Source: Pelagibacterales bacterium SAG-MED43 (GTDB taxonomy: Bacteria; Pseudomonadota; Alphaproteobacteria; Pelagibacterales; Pelagibacteraceae). From it: 64,000 nucleotides of DNA. Positions 3,954 to 34,721 of the stretch are shown one piece after another; positions within the stretch are counted from its first letter, which is position 1, and every line of letters starts with the position of its first letter. Location: positions 20,447 to 84,446 of the forward strand of contig JACWEK010000002.1 in the NCBI GenBank assembly GCA_014653535.1. The letters are read 5' to 3'. The notes beneath the pieces are model-generated. The model had not been told where the DNA came from. It made no database searches and was given only the letters and a program-made list of their open reading frames with translations. Both the position numbers and the translations under genes were made by a program.

Positions 3954-5105
3954 ATGAATTTAAAAGATTGCCATAACTTTAGTGATTTTAGAAAATTAGC
4001 TGAAAAAAAATTACCGTCTCCAATATTCCATTATATCGATGGTGCGGCTGATGATGAAATTACATATGCTAGAAATACAAGTGCTTTTGATGATGTTGAT
4101 TTAGTTCCAAATGTTTTAAGAGGAGTAGAAAATGTTGATTTATCTACTACAATATTTGGAAAAAAAATAGATTTACCTTTTTACTTATCTCCAACAGCAC
4201 TTCAAAGGCTTTTTCATTATGATGGTGAGAGAGCAGTTGGTAAAGCAGCAAAAAAATTCAATACTATGTTTGGTGTTTCAGCGCTGGCAACAGTTAGCGT
4301 AGAAGAGATATCATCAATGATTGATACTCCAAAAATGTTTCAGTTTTATTTTCATAAAGACAGAGGTTTAAATGACTCGTGTTTAGAAAGAGCCAAAGCA
4401 GCAAATTTTGATGTGATGGCGTTAACGGTTGATACTATTACTGGAGGAAATAGAGAGAGAGACTTAAGAACAGGATTTACCTCTCCACCAAAGTTAACTT
4501 TAGCAAGTTTATATAGTTTTGCTACTAAACCAATGTGGGGAATTAATTATTTAACAAAAGGTAAGTTTGAATTACCTCATTTACAAGATTTTGTGAAAGA
4601 AGGTACTGATGTTAACTCATCAATTGGAAATTATTTTTCAACCATGTTGGATCAATCTATGAATTGGAAAGACGCTGAAAATCTTTGTTCTAAATGGGGA
4701 GGTCATTTCGCACTTAAAGGAGTTATGAGTGTGGAAGATGCAAAAAGAGCAGTAGACATAGGATGCACAGGTATAATGGTATCAAACCATGGTGGAAGAC
4801 AGTTAGATGGATCTAGAGCGCCTTTTGATCAACTTGCAGAAATTGTTGATGCAGTTGGTGATAAATTAGATGTTATATGCGAAGGTGGAATTCATAGAGG
4901 CACACATATGCTTAAAGCATTGTCATTAGGTGCCAAAGCTTGTTCAGGGGGAAGATTATATCTTTATGCTTTAGCTGCAGGAGGACAAGCAGGTGTTGAA
5001 AGAGCTATAGAAAAATATAAAACAGAATTAGTCAGAGATATGAAATTAATGGGGTGTACAAAAATAAGTGATCTAAATCGAGATAACTTACGATTTAGAA
5101 GATAA
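3954..5105 (+). CDS. FMN-dependent alpha-hydroxyacid oxidase/dehydrogenase (LldD/glycolate oxidase family), paralog 1
   Basis: FYFHKDR and SNHGGRQLDGS motifs; (beta/alpha)8 FMN enzyme family. Confidence 0.88.
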   Translation: MNLKDCHNFSDFRKLAEKKLPSPIFHYIDGAADDEITYARNTSAFDDVDLVPNVLRGVENVDLSTTIFGKKIDLPFYLSPTALQRLFHYDGERAVGKAAKKFNTMFGVSALATVSVEEISSMIDTPKMFQFYFHKDRGLNDSCLERAKAANFDVMALTVDTITGGNRERDLRTGFTSPPKLTLASLYSFATKPMWGINYLTKGKFELPHLQDFVKEGTDVNSSIGNYFSTMLDQSMNWKDAENLCSKWGGHFALKGVMSVEDAKRAVDIGCTGIMVSNHGGRQLDGSRAPFDQLAEIVDAVGDKLDVICEGGIHRGTHMLKALSLGAKACSGGRLYLYALAAGGQAGVERAIEKYKTELVRDMKLMGCTKISDLNRDNLRFRR

Positions 5106-26933: not shown

Positions 26934-28550
26934 ATGAATCCTTATGATTCTAATTTAGATAAAAATAGAGCAAATTATGTTCCGTTAACGCCATTATCAT
27001 TCTTAGAAAGAGCAAAAGAGGTTTATCCTAATTATGAAGCTATAGTCTATGAAGATAGAAAATATACTTGGAGCGAGGTACATAAACGAGCTACTAAATT
27101 TGCTAGTGCTCTGGAAAAAATTGGTATAACCAAAGGAGATACTGTTTCATTTTTAGCATTTAATACACCAGAAATTTTTGAGGCACACTACTCTGTTCCT
27201 ATGACGGGTGCAGTGTTAAACACAATCAATATAAGATTAGACGCTAACACAATCTCATATATTTTGAATCATAGTGACGCAAAAGTATTAGTTGTCGATA
27301 GACAACTTCATACTGAGGTTAAAAAAGCATTAAATAAATTAAATAAAAAAATTATTATAATTGATATTCACGATCAGTTTGCAGATCAATCTAAATTAGA
27401 AAAAATTGGAGAATTGGAATATGAAAGTTTTTTAAATATGGGCGATGATAATTATATTTGGAAAATGCCAGAAGATGAATGGCAAGCTATATCATTAAGT
27501 TACACTTCAGGGACAACAGGAAATCCAAAAGGAGTTGTATATCATCATAGAGGATCTTATCTAATGTCAACTGGAAGTGCTGTTGCATGGAATATGCCAA
27601 ATAGACTAAATTTTTTAACAGTCGTTCCTATGTTTCATTGTAATGGATGGTGCTATCCTTGGACAGTTCCAATGTTAAATGGAAGAACTATTTGTTTAAG
27701 AAATATAGATGTAAAAAAAATTTTTGAATTAATAGACAAATATAATGTAACTCATTTTGGCGGCGCTCCTATAGTATTAAATATGTTAACAGGTGCTCCC
27801 GAAAGCGATCGAAAAAAATTAAAACATAAAGTACATGTTCTTACGGCAGGAGCTCCACCACCAAGTATAATTTTCAAAAAGATGAAAGAACTTGGCTTTG
27901 AAGTAATGCACGTATATGGCTTAACTGAGACTTATGGGCATGTCACTCAATGCGCCTGGAATGATGATTGGAATAATTTTGATGAAGATAAGCAGAATGA
28001 AATTAAAGCAAGACAAGGAGTTAGGTATCCTAATCTTGAGGGCGCAACCATAATGGATCCTGAAACAATGAAGGAAGTGCCAAAAGATGGAAAAACAATT
28101 GGTGAGATAATGCTCAGAGGAAATGTGGTCATGAAGGGTTATTTTAAAGACAAGGCTGCTACAGATAAAGCCATGGCTGGTGGCTGGTTTCACTCAGGAG
28201 ACTTGGCTGTAATCCATCCAGATGGATATGTAAAAATACAAGATAGATCAAAAGATATAATTATTTCAGGTGGAGAAAATATATCTTCAATTGAAATTGA
28301 AAATACTTTATCAAAGCATCCCTCTGTATCAATAGCGGCAGTTGTAGCTAAACCTGATGAAAAATGGGGAGAAGTACCCTGTGCATTTATTGAAATGGTT
28401 AAGGATAAACCTACCACCGATAAAGAATTAATTAATTTCTGTAAGGAAACATTAGCTGGTTTTAAAGTTCCAAAACAAGTAGTCTTTTGTGAATTGCCAA
28501 AAACTTCAACTGGTAAAATTCAAAAATTTGAATTAAGAAAAAAATTTTAG
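26934..28550 (+). CDS. dmdB: Acyl-CoA synthetase, probable methylmercaptopropionate-CoA ligase DmdB
   Basis: SYTSGTTGNPKGVVYHHRG; HVYGLTETYG; ISGGENISSIEIE; clustered with dmdA and dmdC. Confidence 0.85.
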   Translation: MNPYDSNLDKNRANYVPLTPLSFLERAKEVYPNYEAIVYEDRKYTWSEVHKRATKFASALEKIGITKGDTVSFLAFNTPEIFEAHYSVPMTGAVLNTINIRLDANTISYILNHSDAKVLVVDRQLHTEVKKALNKLNKKIIIIDIHDQFADQSKLEKIGELEYESFLNMGDDNYIWKMPEDEWQAISLSYTSGTTGNPKGVVYHHRGSYLMSTGSAVAWNMPNRLNFLTVVPMFHCNGWCYPWTVPMLNGRTICLRNIDVKKIFELIDKYNVTHFGGAPIVLNMLTGAPESDRKKLKHKVHVLTAGAPPPSIIFKKMKELGFEVMHVYGLTETYGHVTQCAWNDDWNNFDEDKQNEIKARQGVRYPNLEGATIMDPETMKEVPKDGKTIGEIMLRGNVVMKGYFKDKAATDKAMAGGWFHSGDLAVIHPDGYVKIQDRSKDIIISGGENISSIEIENTLSKHPSVSIAAVVAKPDEKWGEVPCAFIEMVKDKPTTDKELINFCKETLAGFKVPKQVVFCELPKTSTGKIQKFELRKKF

Positions 28551-28558
28551 GTAATCAG

Positions 28559-29335
28559 TTGATAATTGACATAGAAAACAAAAGTGTTCATGCATCTGAT
28601 GCTGGACAAGGTATAGATAGCTCGAAAGATACGATAGTATTTCTTCATGGAAGTGGTCTCTCTCATATTGTTTGGTCTTTAACCGAACAATTTTTTTCAA
28701 GTAAAAACTTTAATGTTCTTGCAATAGATTTACCAGGTCATGGTAATTCAGATGGTCCATGTTTAGATAGTATTGAAAAAATTACAGATTGGTTGGAAAA
28801 AGTATTTGAGAAACTAAATTTAAAAAATTTGACAATAATTGGTCATTCACAAGGATGTCTAGAAGCTCTTGAATATTCTTTTAAATATAAAGCAAGATTA
28901 AAAAAAATGGTTTTAATGGGTGGTTCATATCGAATGCCAGTAAATAAGGATCTAATAGATTTAGCGTCCAATGGTGACTCTGATGCCGTTAAATTAATGA
29001 TGAAATGGGGTTATAAAGGTTCTAAAAATTTTATTGGTGGAAATCCAATTGAAAGAATTATTCAATCACCTAGGGACATAAGTGAAATTTTAGCAGTTGA
29101 TCTTATTGCCTGTAATAATTATGCCAATGGGTTAGAGGCAGCTAAATCAATTAGTTGCCCAATCATGTTAGTTTTTGGTGAGTTGGATAAAATGGTTAAT
29201 TTAGAAGCTGGAAAAAAATTTGCAAACTTAGTTAATAATTCGATCACTCATATAATACCTGGATCTGGACATATGATTATGATTGAAAAAGCGTTTGAAA
29301 TGAGAGAGAAGGTCTTAGAATTTTTAAAAAAATGA
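28559..29335 (+). CDS. Alpha/beta hydrolase within the DMSP demethylation cluster
   Basis: GHSQGC nucleophile elbow, FLHGSGLSH oxyanion motif, late His in [12 protein letters not shown] start. Confidence 0.85.
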
Positions 29336-30441
29336 AAAATTTCCCTATTGTAAAATCAAGAAGATTAAGAAGCACTCCTTATACAGATAGAATAGAGTCT
29401 CATGGAGTAAGCAGCTACACAGTTTATAACCATATGTTACTTCCAGCATCTTTTAAGTCTTTAGAGTCAGATTATGAACATTTAAAAAAATTTGTTCAAG
29501 TTTGGGATGTAGCAGCAGAAAGGCAAGTTGAAATTACTGGAAAAGATTCAGCAAAATTAGTTCAATTAATGACATGCAGAGATTTATCAAAATCAAAAGT
29601 TGGTAAATGTTACTATGCTCCACTAATTGATGATCAAGGATTATTAGTTAATGATCCAATCATTAATAAATTAGGAGAAGAAAGATGGTGGTTATCAATT
29701 GCAGACTCGGATGTAATTTTTTTTGCTAAAGGACTTGCAGCAGGAAATAAATTTGATGTTGATATCCATGAACCAAATGTAAATATTTTAGCAGTACAAG
29801 GTCCACTTTCAGATGATTTAATGGCAAAATTGTTTGGTGAAGAAATAAGACAATTAAAATTTTTTAACTTTAAATATTATGAATTTAAAAAAAAAAAATA
29901 CTTTATTGCTAGATCGGGCTGGTCAAAACAAAGTGGTTTTGAGATTTACGTTGAAGACAATTTAGCTGGTCAAGACCTTTATGATTATTTATTTGAATAT
30001 GGAGAAGAATTTAATGTAAAAGCTGGATGTCCCAATCTTATAGAACGAATAGAATCAGCATTGTTATCTTATGGAAACGATTTTGATAACAGAGACAATC
30101 CTTTTGAAGCAAATTTTGATAAGTTTGTAAATCTAGATAGTGAGGTTGAATTTTTAGGCAAAGAAAAACTCAAAAAATTAATGCAAGAGGGTATTACAAG
30201 AAAATTGATGGGAGTTATGATTGATCATAATAAAATTGATATGTATTGTGAAAAAACATTGCTAGATGATAATGATAATATCGTGGGCTATGTAAGATCA
30301 GCAACTTATTCTCCAACCTTCAAAAAGGTTATTGGTATTGCCATGATTAATAAACCTTATTGGAATAATAAAACCCAATTTAAGATAGATATTAATGAGA
30401 AAATATTTGTAGGAACAGTTTGCGATTTACCCTTCATTTAG
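29332..30441 (+). CDS. dmdA: Dimethylsulfoniopropionate demethylase DmdA
   Basis: GcvT-like protein of 369 aa; [31 protein letters not shown]-terminus; neighbours dmdB and dmdC. Confidence 0.88.
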
Positions 30442-30461: not shown

Positions 30462-31469
30462 ATGAATATAGCAATTGTAGGAGCAACAGGAAATGTTGGT
30501 AGAAAAATATTAGAAGTTCTTGAAAAAAAAGATCTATCTATAGATAATCTTTATTTAGTTGCTTCATCAAATAGTGCTGGAAAAAAAATTATATTTAATA
30601 ATAAAGAATATGAAATTTATAATTTAGAAAACTTTGATTTCTCAAAAGTTAAAATTACTTTTTTTGCAGCTGGTGGAAAAATTTCTGAAAAATTTGCTGA
30701 AAAGGCAGCAAAAAGTAGTTTTGTCATAGATAACTCAAGCCACTATAGAATGGACCCAGATGTTCCACTAATAGTACCTCAAGTTAATTCAGATTCTTTA
30801 AAAAATATAAAAAAAAATATTATAGCAAATCCAAACTGCTCAACTGCACAATTAGTCATTGCTCTTAAGCCTTTACATGATTTGTTTATAATTAAAAGAA
30901 TAGTTGTCTCAACTTATCAATCAGTTTCAGGTGGTGGTAAAGCACCTATGGATGAACTAATTGAACAAACTAAATTAGTATTAGAGGGAAAAAAAGTTAA
31001 GTCAAAAAATTTTACCCAGCAAATAGCTTTTAATGCAATTCCTCACATAGATGTATTTTCAGAAGGTGGTTATACAAAAGAAGAACTTAAAATGACCAAT
31101 GAAACAAAAAAAATTTTAGATAATAAAATAGACCTTACAGCCACATGTGTAAGGCTACCCATATCTGTTTCTCACTCTGAGTCAGTAAATGTTCAATTTG
31201 AAAAACCTTTTTTAATAGAGCAAATAAAAGAGGCTTTAGACAACTTTGAAGGTTGTCAAGTAGTAGATCAAAGAGTTGATGGAGGGTATTCAACTCCCCT
31301 TGAAGCTGAAGGAAGAGATGAAACTTTTATTTCAAGAATAAGAGAGGATAATACTGTAAAAAATGGATTAAATTTATGGATTGTATCAGATAATTTACTT
31401 AGAGGCGCGGCCTTGAATGCTGTAGAAATTGCTGAAGCATTAATTAAGAATAAATTTTATGGAAAATAA
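30462..31469 (+). CDS. asd: Aspartate-semialdehyde dehydrogenase
   Basis: GATGNVGRKILEVL; NPNCSTAQLV; YQSVSGGGK. Confidence 0.97.
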   Translation: MNIAIVGATGNVGRKILEVLEKKDLSIDNLYLVASSNSAGKKIIFNNKEYEIYNLENFDFSKVKITFFAAGGKISEKFAEKAAKSSFVIDNSSHYRMDPDVPLIVPQVNSDSLKNIKKNIIANPNCSTAQLVIALKPLHDLFIIKRIVVSTYQSVSGGGKAPMDELIEQTKLVLEGKKVKSKNFTQQIAFNAIPHIDVFSEGGYTKEELKMTNETKKILDNKIDLTATCVRLPISVSHSESVNVQFEKPFLIEQIKEALDNFEGCQVVDQRVDGGYSTPLEAEGRDETFISRIREDNTVKNGLNLWIVSDNLLRGAALNAVEIAEALIKNKFYGK

Positions 31470-31842
31470 AAATCCCTTATCTCCTCATCTACAAATTTAT
31501 AGATGGCATATTTCTTCATTAGTTTCTATTGCTCATAGAATCACTGGCATTATAAATTTTGTGGCTTTAATATTTATTTGCATTTGGGTATTTTTACTTT
31601 TTTCAGGAGAAACAAATTATAATTTAATTGATCATTTTTTAAAATCGATATTTGGAAAATTTATTATTCTTGGTTTAATTTGGTCTTTTAGTTTTCAAAT
31701 ATTAAGTGAAATTAGACACTTGATTTTAGATATGGGCTATGGCTTTGAACCCAAAATGACTAAAATAAGTGGTCTACTAGTTATTTTTGGTTCATTTTTT
31801 TTAACAGTTACAATTTTTATGGTGGGAAAAAATTTATTTTAA
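31459..31842 (+). CDS. sdhC: Succinate dehydrogenase cytochrome b556 subunit SdhC
   Basis: SPHLQIYRWHISSLVSIAHRITG and EIRHLILDMGYGF; three TM segments; upstream of sdhDAB. Confidence 0.93.
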   Translation: MENKNPLSPHLQIYRWHISSLVSIAHRITGIINFVALIFICIWVFLLFSGETNYNLIDHFLKSIFGKFIILGLIWSFSFQILSEIRHLILDMGYGFEPKMTKISGLLVIFGSFFLTVTIFMVGKNLF

Positions 31843-32162
31843 TGAATGTCTCTACAAAAAAATGGATTTGCCTGAAAATTAGTTCGCTCATTTTAATCCC
31901 ATTAATGTTGTGGTTTATCCTAAATTTTGTATCTATTTACGATAGAGATTTTGCTGAAATTAATGACTTTTTTTCAAATACGACATCAAAATTTTTGTTT
32001 AGTTTGTTTTTAGTTTTTGGCTTCCTATTCTCTGCATTGAATATAAGTGAAGTTTTTGAAGATTATATTGAAGAAAATAATTTCAAAAATGTCGCAAATA
32101 GACTGCTGTATTTATCTGCTATAATAATTCCTTTATTTACAATAATATTATTATTTATTTAA
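31842..32162 (+). CDS. sdhD: Succinate dehydrogenase membrane anchor SdhD (divergent)
   Basis: Three-TM small protein between sdhC and sdhA; EVFEDYI corresponds to the SdhD xVxxDYV motif. Confidence 0.87.
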
Positions 32163-32166
32163 ATTT

Positions 32167-33942
32167 ATGAGCTCATATAAAATAATTGAACATGAATACG
32201 ATGTAGTTGTTCTAGGAGCAGGAGGATCGGGACTTAGAGCTGCAGTAGGTTTAAGTGAAGCTGGTTTAAAAACTGCTTGTATTTCGAAAGTATTTCCAAC
32301 GAGAAGTCATACCTCAGCAGCGCAAGGTGGAATTTCTGCTGCTTTAGGGAATATGGGAGAAGATGATTGGCGATGGCATATGTACGATACTGTCAAGGGA
32401 GCTGACTGGCTTGGCGATCAGGACAGTATTGAATATTTATGTAAAGAAGCACCAAAAGCAGTAATAGAATTAGAAAAATACGGAGTTCCATTTAGTAGAA
32501 CCGATGAGGGTAAAATATATCAAAGACCATTTGGTGGAATGACTAAAAATTATGGAAATGGAATAGTACAAAGAACTTGTGCAGCAGCAGATAGAACAGG
32601 TCATGCAATTTTGCATACACTTTATGGTCAAGCTCTTAAACATAATACAGAATTTTTCATTGAATATTTTGCTCTAGATTTGTTAATGAAAAATGGTGAG
32701 TGTAAAGGTTTGATAGCGTGGAATTTAAATGATGGAACAATTCACAGGTTTAGAGCTCATACAGTAATTATTGCAACAGGTGGGTATGGAAAAGTTTATT
32801 ATTCAGCCACATCAGCACATACATGTACAGGAGATGGAAATGCAATGGTACTTAGGGCTGGGCTCCCACTTCAAGACATGGAATTTGTTCAGTTTCATCC
32901 AACTGGAATATATGGTCACGGTACTTTGATTACTGAAGGTGCTAGAGGAGAAGGAGGATATCTTACAAACTCCAAAGGTGAAAGATTTATGGAAAGATAT
33001 GCTCCAAAGGCTAAAGATTTGGCATCGAGAGATGTAGTTAGTAGATCAATGTCAATTGAGATTAATGAAGGTAGAGGTGTAGGAAAAGATGGAGATCATG
33101 TTCATTTAAATTTAAGTCATTTAGAAAAAGATATTATTGAAAGTAGATTGCCAGGAATAACTGATGCAGCAAGATTATTTGCTGATGTTGATGTAACCAA
33201 AGACCCAATTCCCGTTGTACCTACTGTTCATTATAATATGGGTGGAATACCAACCAATTATAAAGCTGAGGTTTTAACGGTAAATGGCTCTGAAAAAACT
33301 GTTCCTGGCTTAATGGCAATAGGAGAAGCAGCATGTGTATCTGTACATGGGGCTAATAGATTAGGCTCAAACTCTTTGATTGACTTAGTTGTTTTTGGAA
33401 GAGCAGCTGCAAAAAGAGCCAGTGAATTAATTAAACCAGGGGCTCCTCATGAAGAAATTGGAGAGTCCGAAACTCAAAAATGTTTAGATAGATTTGATAA
33501 ATTGAGAAATGCCAATGGTGAAAATAGTACAGCCGATCTAAGATTATCAATGCAGAAAACGATGCAATCAAAATGTGCAGTTTTTAGAACAGAAAAAACT
33601 TTGAAAGAAGGTGTTGAAGAAATCAAAAATACCTACGACGGAATGAATTCTATCTCAGTAAAAGATAAATCATTAATATTTAACACTGATTTAGTTGAAA
33701 CTTTAGAGTTTGATAACCTTATTAGACAAGCTGTTGCGACAGTTGACTCTGCTTATAATAGAAAAGAAAGTAGAGGAGCTCACGCAAGGGAAGATTTTCC
33801 TAAAAGAGATGACGAAAAATTTATGCAACACACTCTTTCATGGTGTGATGGCAAAAACACTAAAATTATTTATAGACCAGTCCATAAATCTACATTAACA
33901 AATGAAGTACAATACTTTCCACCCCAGGAAAGAGTATATTAA
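32167..33942 (+). CDS. sdhA: Succinate dehydrogenase flavoprotein subunit SdhA
   Basis: [36 protein letters not shown] covalent-FAD His region. Confidence 0.98.
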
Positions 33943-34721
33943 TGGTTCAATTAAATTTACCTAAAAATTCAAAAATCAAAAAAGGTAATTATTTTAAAGA
34001 TAAATCTGGTGCTAAAAATATAAAAAAAGTTAATGTTTATAGATGGGATCCTTCAACGGAAGAAAACCCAAGAATAGATACTTACGAAGTTGACATAGAC
34101 AATTGTCCCTCAAAAGTTTTAGATGTTTTAAATAAAATAAAAAATGAAATAGATCCAACTTTAGCTTATAGGAGATCTTGTGCCCATGGTGTCTGTGGTT
34201 CTTGTGCTATGAATATGGGAGGAAAAAATGGATTGGCATGTACTACTCCACATGCTGAGATTAAAGGAGATATCGATATCTATCCATTGCCACATTTAAA
34301 AGTTAAAAGAGATTTAATAGGTGACTTAGATGGGCTTTACAAACAATATCAATCAATAGAACCTTGGTTAAAATCAAACTCTAAATCTGAAGTAACAGAA
34401 ATCTATCAGTCAAAAGAAGATAGAGCAAAACTAGATGGTGCTTATGAATGTATAATGTGTGCATGTTGCTCAACTTCTTGCCCAAGTTATTGGTGGAATG
34501 GTGATAAGTATTTAGGTCCTGCAGTTTTACTCCAAGCTTATAGATGGATTGTAGATAGTAGAGATGAGGAGAGAAAATCAAGATTAAAAAAAGTTGCTGA
34601 TGAATTAAAGCTTTATCGATGTCATACCATATTAAATTGTACTAGTGCCTGTCCAAAAGGTTTAAATCCTGCAAAAGCAATAGCAGAAATAAAAAAAATG
34701 TTAGCAACTGCTAACGTTTAA
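33942..34721 (+). CDS. sdhB: Succinate dehydrogenase iron-sulfur subunit SdhB
   Basis: [50 protein letters not shown]. Confidence 0.98.

Follow-up and report, generated by a model that had tools for sequence, protein, structure and literature searches.

Is heme b present in the complex II of SAR11, which are among the ocean's most abundant bacteria? To our knowledge, the role of this heme in complex II is still unsettled, and our literature search found no paper on heme in SAR11 complex II. The question is raised by a locus in a stretch of 64,000 nucleotides from Pelagibacterales bacterium SAG-MED43 (hereafter the window, to which all positions below refer), where both membrane anchors of succinate dehydrogenase had been predicted, from an alignment made by eye, to lack the canonical axial histidines of heme b. 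Comparison of the two anchors with their counterparts in other bacteria suggests that this SdhCDAB is very probably a functional type C succinate:ubiquinone oxidoreductase that carries no heme b.

The sdhCDAB operon of the window

The window contains a complete sdhCDAB operon on the forward strand, flanked by asd and a methylmalonate-semialdehyde dehydrogenase gene. The first gene, sdhC (31459..31842), encodes a cytochrome b556-type membrane anchor of 127 aa, which scored 118 bits against TIGR02970 and 98 bits against PF01127 and matched chain C of the E. coli structure 1NEK. It is followed by sdhD (31842..32162), encoding a hydrophobic membrane anchor of 106 aa (TIGR02968, 52 bits), by sdhA (32167..33942) for the flavoprotein subunit (TIGR01816, 957 bits, cut-off 727), and by sdhB (33942..34721) for the iron-sulfur subunit (NF004616, 352 bits). 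The RCH motif of SdhB, with the equivalent of E. coli His207, is present, and SdhB is 50% identical to E. coli SdhB. The ligand positions of the E. coli SdhC and SdhD comparison sequences were verified against PDB chains. All four TIGR02970, TIGR02968, TIGR01816 and NF004616 scores lie above their cut-offs, and judged by these profiles the SdhC and SdhD family membership of the anchors is certain.

Fumarate_red_D (PF02313), the FrdD family, reached only 18.8 bits on SdhC (cut-off 25) and was absent from the matches of SdhD. The locus was therefore rejected as a type D fumarate reductase, which would have anchors of the FrdC and FrdD families. Among the features of a type C enzyme, it has SdhC-family and SdhD-family anchors encoded together with sdhA and sdhB, and it has the ubiquinone-site residues (E. 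coli SdhC Ser27 and Arg31; SdhD Asp82 and Tyr83). The one heme b histidine ligand per anchor is lacking, with Gln80 and Phe63 in its place, and this loss extends throughout the genus.

In the same region, a probable DMSP demethylase gene, dmdA, lies two genes upstream of sdhC at 29332-30441 (NCBIfam NF009133, 540 bits, cut-off 410), and positions 26934-28550 hold an acyl-CoA synthetase gene.

The ligand positions and their distribution

Our phmmer alignment placed SdhC Gln80 (CAA, 31696..31698, forward strand) on the heme ligand His84 in chain C of 1NEK and, in the H84M mutant 2WU2, on Met84. The single SdhD sequence gave no match against the PDB. With a profile built from its relatives, the column of Phe63 (TTC, 32028..32030, forward strand) fell on the ligand His71 of 1NEK chain D and on Met71 of 2WU5. 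The AlphaFold2 single-subunit models, with pLDDT values of 88 for SdhC and 93 for SdhD, put both ligand sites in mid-helix. The SdhD model superposed on 1NEK chain D with a TM score of 0.86 and an rmsd of 1.9; the top matches of the SdhC model were E. coli SdhC chains, with a larger rmsd. Thus the open reading frames, coordinates and codons of the original prediction were all correct, its alignment by eye was upheld by the structure-anchored one, and both canonical histidines are missing. The SdhD translation contains no histidine at all, as had also been claimed.

We then compared SdhC/SdhD pairs from 318 genomes or named records, in 309 of which both sites were readable. A survey of SAR11 genomes had been proposed as a check on the prediction, and it bore the prediction out: all 35 genomes of the window's genus have Gln at the SdhC site and Glu four residues further on (ligand+4), with Phe (32) or Tyr (3) at the SdhD site. 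Since the same substitutions recur in 35/35 genomes, sequencing error or chance is ruled out. The closest relatives are named records of Pelagibacteraceae and Candidatus Pelagibacter, which the SdhA tree puts in the same clade.

Four neighbouring SAR11 genera (g2, g4, g14 and g7) have one or both losses. In g2, g4 and g14 the SdhD histidine is gone wherever the site is readable, and SdhC has His in some genomes and Gln in others; a g7 genome carries Tyr and Asn at these sites. Both histidines are kept in genera g3, g5, g6, g8, g9 and g12, as well as in g16 of family f2. The genus-wide state together with the mixed neighbouring genera indicates that ligand loss is a fixed trait that shows graded stages, from SdhC His and SdhD Phe with Glu84 already present to SdhC Gln. 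Seven other named Pelagibacteraceae records (L184, L186, L188, L194, L196, L198 and L200) combine SdhC Gln with SdhD His, which may be either retained or regained; they count as evidence against the heme-free reading. As these records adjoin relatives bearing Tyr, the SdhD site appears to be drifting between Phe, Tyr and His.

Further losses were found outside this group. The sister family f2 (L141-L152, L357-L359) shows a separate half-loss, in which SdhD His is kept and the SdhC ligand is replaced by Tyr in g15 and g17 (L358) and by Asn in g18, with Cys, Ser or Asp at SdhC ligand+4 where it was read. Among the Alphaproteobacteria outside SAR11, SdhC has Tyr in G336, G386, G361/G459 and G316, and SdhD has Tyr in G394 and G610. 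In four such records (L284, L285, L289 and L318), SdhC Tyr is accompanied by a Gly to Glu exchange at SdhD ligand+4. A phylum-wide search gave 37 loci (SdhD unreadable in one), of which G610 alone deviates and is a candidate for a further loss. Its locus (L355) combines Tyr at the SdhD ligand site with Cys at SdhC ligand+4; the genome measures 1.5 Mb, whereas most others of its family have 6 Mb.

On the SdhA tree of 245 rows, the state of any ligand lost, partially or completely, required 8 changes, so ligand loss recurs about eight times. The tree sets g1 apart from g2/g4, although a single clade was not rejected (AU p=0.39), and rpoB groups g1 with g6 and g2/g4 with g3. In SAR11 the SdhD ligand may have been lost either once or twice.

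Substitutions around the ligand sites

The ligand+4 residue lies one helical turn past the ligand. In the window, SdhC Glu84 (31708..31710) stands at this position, where E. coli has the heme-facing Gly88, and SdhD Asn67 (32040..32042) stands at the heme-facing Gly75 of E. coli, where most relatives with neither ligand have Ser or Thr. Column statistics mark a third position, SdhD Lys12 (31875..31877), at E. coli Arg20, to which the distal heme propionate is bound (PMC3290573). All three codons are on the forward strand.

Among the 186 records with both histidines, SdhC ligand+4 is Gly in 185 and SdhD ligand+4 is Gly or Ser in 185. The lone SdhC exception, G287 (L298), carries Asp in SdhC and Ser in SdhD at this position, and is perhaps an early stage of loss. 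In every one of the records with a lost histidine (123/123), at least one of the two glycines is replaced. SdhC ligand+4 is Glu in 104 of these 123, and SdhD ligand+4 is Glu in four. Independent pairs on the SdhA tree supported this coupling, with 6.6 of 7 concordant and 0 opposed (p about 0.016). The same is seen within a genus, as His to Tyr and Gly to Ser differ together between G394 and G485. Within SAR11 family f1, every row that has lost a ligand, among them that of g7, has Glu84 (91/91).

Other pocket residues have changed as well. At the SdhD Arg20 position, Lys stands in all rows that combine SdhC His with SdhD Phe (20/20) and in nearly all that have neither histidine (64/66). SdhD Ala23, which lies near the heme ligand in E. 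coli (PMC3290573), is retained in 126/139 rows with both histidines and replaced by Ser or Gly in 64/66 rows with neither; where lineages of f2 or elsewhere in the class have lost a ligand, the site holds Thr, Met, Cys or Ser. A general enrichment of change was not retained as a finding, for the excess over all listed heme-contact positions was weak (p 0.06 with the ligands) and non-significant without the ligands (p 0.18). In the SdhC of L168 and L174 (matches at 4001-4375), from Lake Baikal and from another surface-water relative, RQ replaces the otherwise conserved RH; the propionate-binding residue, E. coli SdhC His91, is therefore also dispensable there.

The quinone-site residues are invariant in the 245 rows of the tree, which indicates that selection maintains quinone chemistry in this enzyme and agrees with the earlier reading that Ser and Arg of the SdhC SIAHR motif and Asp-Tyr of SdhD are retained. 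The genome also keeps genes for cytochrome c assembly proteins, as the prediction had stated for cytochrome c maturation, and for heme-copper oxidase, so heme as such is still in use.

A complex II predicted to lack heme b

The original prediction had left a choice between no heme b and an unusual ligand, and our survey favours the former. Replacement of the heme-facing glycines goes hand in hand with loss of the ligands, further residues of the pocket are altered and the quinone site is unaltered, which argues for a protein without heme. With both ligands replaced and the cavity apparently filled in, the SAR11 complex II would very probably work without it. Electrons would pass from succinate to FAD, travel along the three Fe-S clusters of SdhB and reach ubiquinone at the site between SdhB, SdhC and SdhD, as in E. 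coli; heme lies off this path and would be dispensable. Electron transfer to quinone would not need heme, because a heme-free E. coli variant keeps much activity and supports growth on succinate (PMC3290573). The protein itself may take over the space and the inter-subunit cross-link vacated by heme. The bundle centre would be occupied by Gln80 and by Phe63 (or Tyr, in some of the relatives), with bulkier residues at the two porphyrin-facing glycine positions, and SdhC Glu84 would provide a negative charge in place of the distal propionate, with SdhD Lys12 as its most likely partner.

The complex II of Saccharomyces cerevisiae, solved by cryo-EM in 2026, has no heme. Sdh4 Tyr108 stands at its ligand site, and Sdh4 Glu112, at ligand+4, replaces the glycine and binds Sdh3 Arg97 in the stead of the heme propionate (PMC13066397). 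The yeast and SAR11 enzymes are alike in the type C fold, the quinone site, a non-histidine residue at a ligand site and a Gly to Glu exchange at ligand+4 of one anchor. They differ in that yeast keeps the Sdh3 histidine and has its Glu on Sdh4, whereas SAR11 has lost both histidines and has its Glu on the opposite anchor, SdhC, as a mirror image; the absence of heme is solved in yeast and predicted in SAR11. In E. coli, the pseudo-two-fold axis of the bundle relates SdhC Arg31 to SdhD Arg20 (PMC3290573), and yeast Sdh3 Arg97 would be the counterpart of this Arg31. Rotation of the yeast solution about the pseudo-two-fold thus predicts that a pair of SdhC Glu84 and SdhD Lys12 replaces the heme propionate, and both of these substitutions are present in SAR11. 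The non-SAR11 lineages with Glu at SdhD ligand+4 have it on the same anchor as yeast Glu112, and theirs would be a yeast-like arrangement.

The type C SdhCDAB of E. coli, with one heme b (1NEK), shares subunits, fold and quinone-site residues with the SAR11 enzyme, but its two axial histidines, two ligand+4 glycines and SdhD Arg20 are all replaced in SAR11. The type D FrdCD of E. coli and the Tetrahymena complex II, also called type D (PMC10227065), have two anchors and no heme. FrdCD belongs to other families and the Tetrahymena anchors are highly divergent, whereas the SAR11 anchors are clear SdhC and SdhD proteins near relatives with both histidines.

Another ligand, such as a lipid, could sit in the place of heme instead of protein side chains, which is a variant of the heme-free reading and not its opposite. 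Cardiolipin is found at the heme position in Tetrahymena (PMC10227065), and a phospholipid lies partly there in yeast (PMC13066397). In SAR11, however, the bulkier side chains suggest filling by protein, and the sequence gives no pointer to a second cofactor. We consider this variant unlikely.

Retention of heme b by unusual ligands, or by a single one, is quite unlikely. The candidates are SdhC His26 (E. coli His30), His87 (E. coli His91) and Gln80, and SdhD Met22. Among the 66 relatives with neither ligand, His26 and His87 are present in 64 and Met22 in 60, and Met22 is rare in those with both histidines. Moreover, E. coli axial-ligand mutants, including single-ligand ones, can retain heme, according to the title of Maklashina 2001, cited in PMC13066397; lineages that have lost one ligand are for this reason less certain than that of the window. 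However, a histidine pair across the subunits is ruled out here because SdhD has no histidine, as is the case in 56 of the 66 relatives. His87 is replaced by Gln in two freshwater relatives and His26 by Thr or Asn in two, so none of the other bis-axial pairs that might have overturned the prediction fits. SdhD Met22 and SdhC Cys41 were considered as new ligands and judged improbable, since by sequence position they would lie about two turns deeper in the bundle than the heme-packing residues. Glu, Ser or Thr in place of Gly at both ligand+4 sites would also clash with a porphyrin.

It is highly improbable that the complex is decaying, or that SdhCD is a mere anchor for a little-active dehydrogenase with ligand loss as neutral erosion: SAR11 genomes are streamlined and the SdhD site varies, but the frames are intact in every surveyed genome, the quinone site and Glu84 are fixed as described, and this genome, which is only 54% complete, gave no further copy of sdhA or sdhC.

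Returning to the heme-free enzyme, we lean towards the broader view that repeated losses of heme b have occurred in bacterial type C complex II, also throughout the dominant marine heterotroph genus, by convergence: an acidic residue at the heme-facing glycine of either anchor takes the role of the propionate. A heme-free type C complex II is known from yeast; the bacterial variant and the convergent substitution rule are likely new. A large free-living aerobic clade without the ligands, beside sisters that keep them and half-way relatives, provides a natural experiment with ready pairs. If the prediction is true, heme-free type C enzymes extend from yeast and protists to bacteria, and a sequence rule of ligand and ligand+4 glycine would predict heme loss. 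It would also matter for the heme and iron economy of SAR11, where an iron-saving motive is a matter of speculation.
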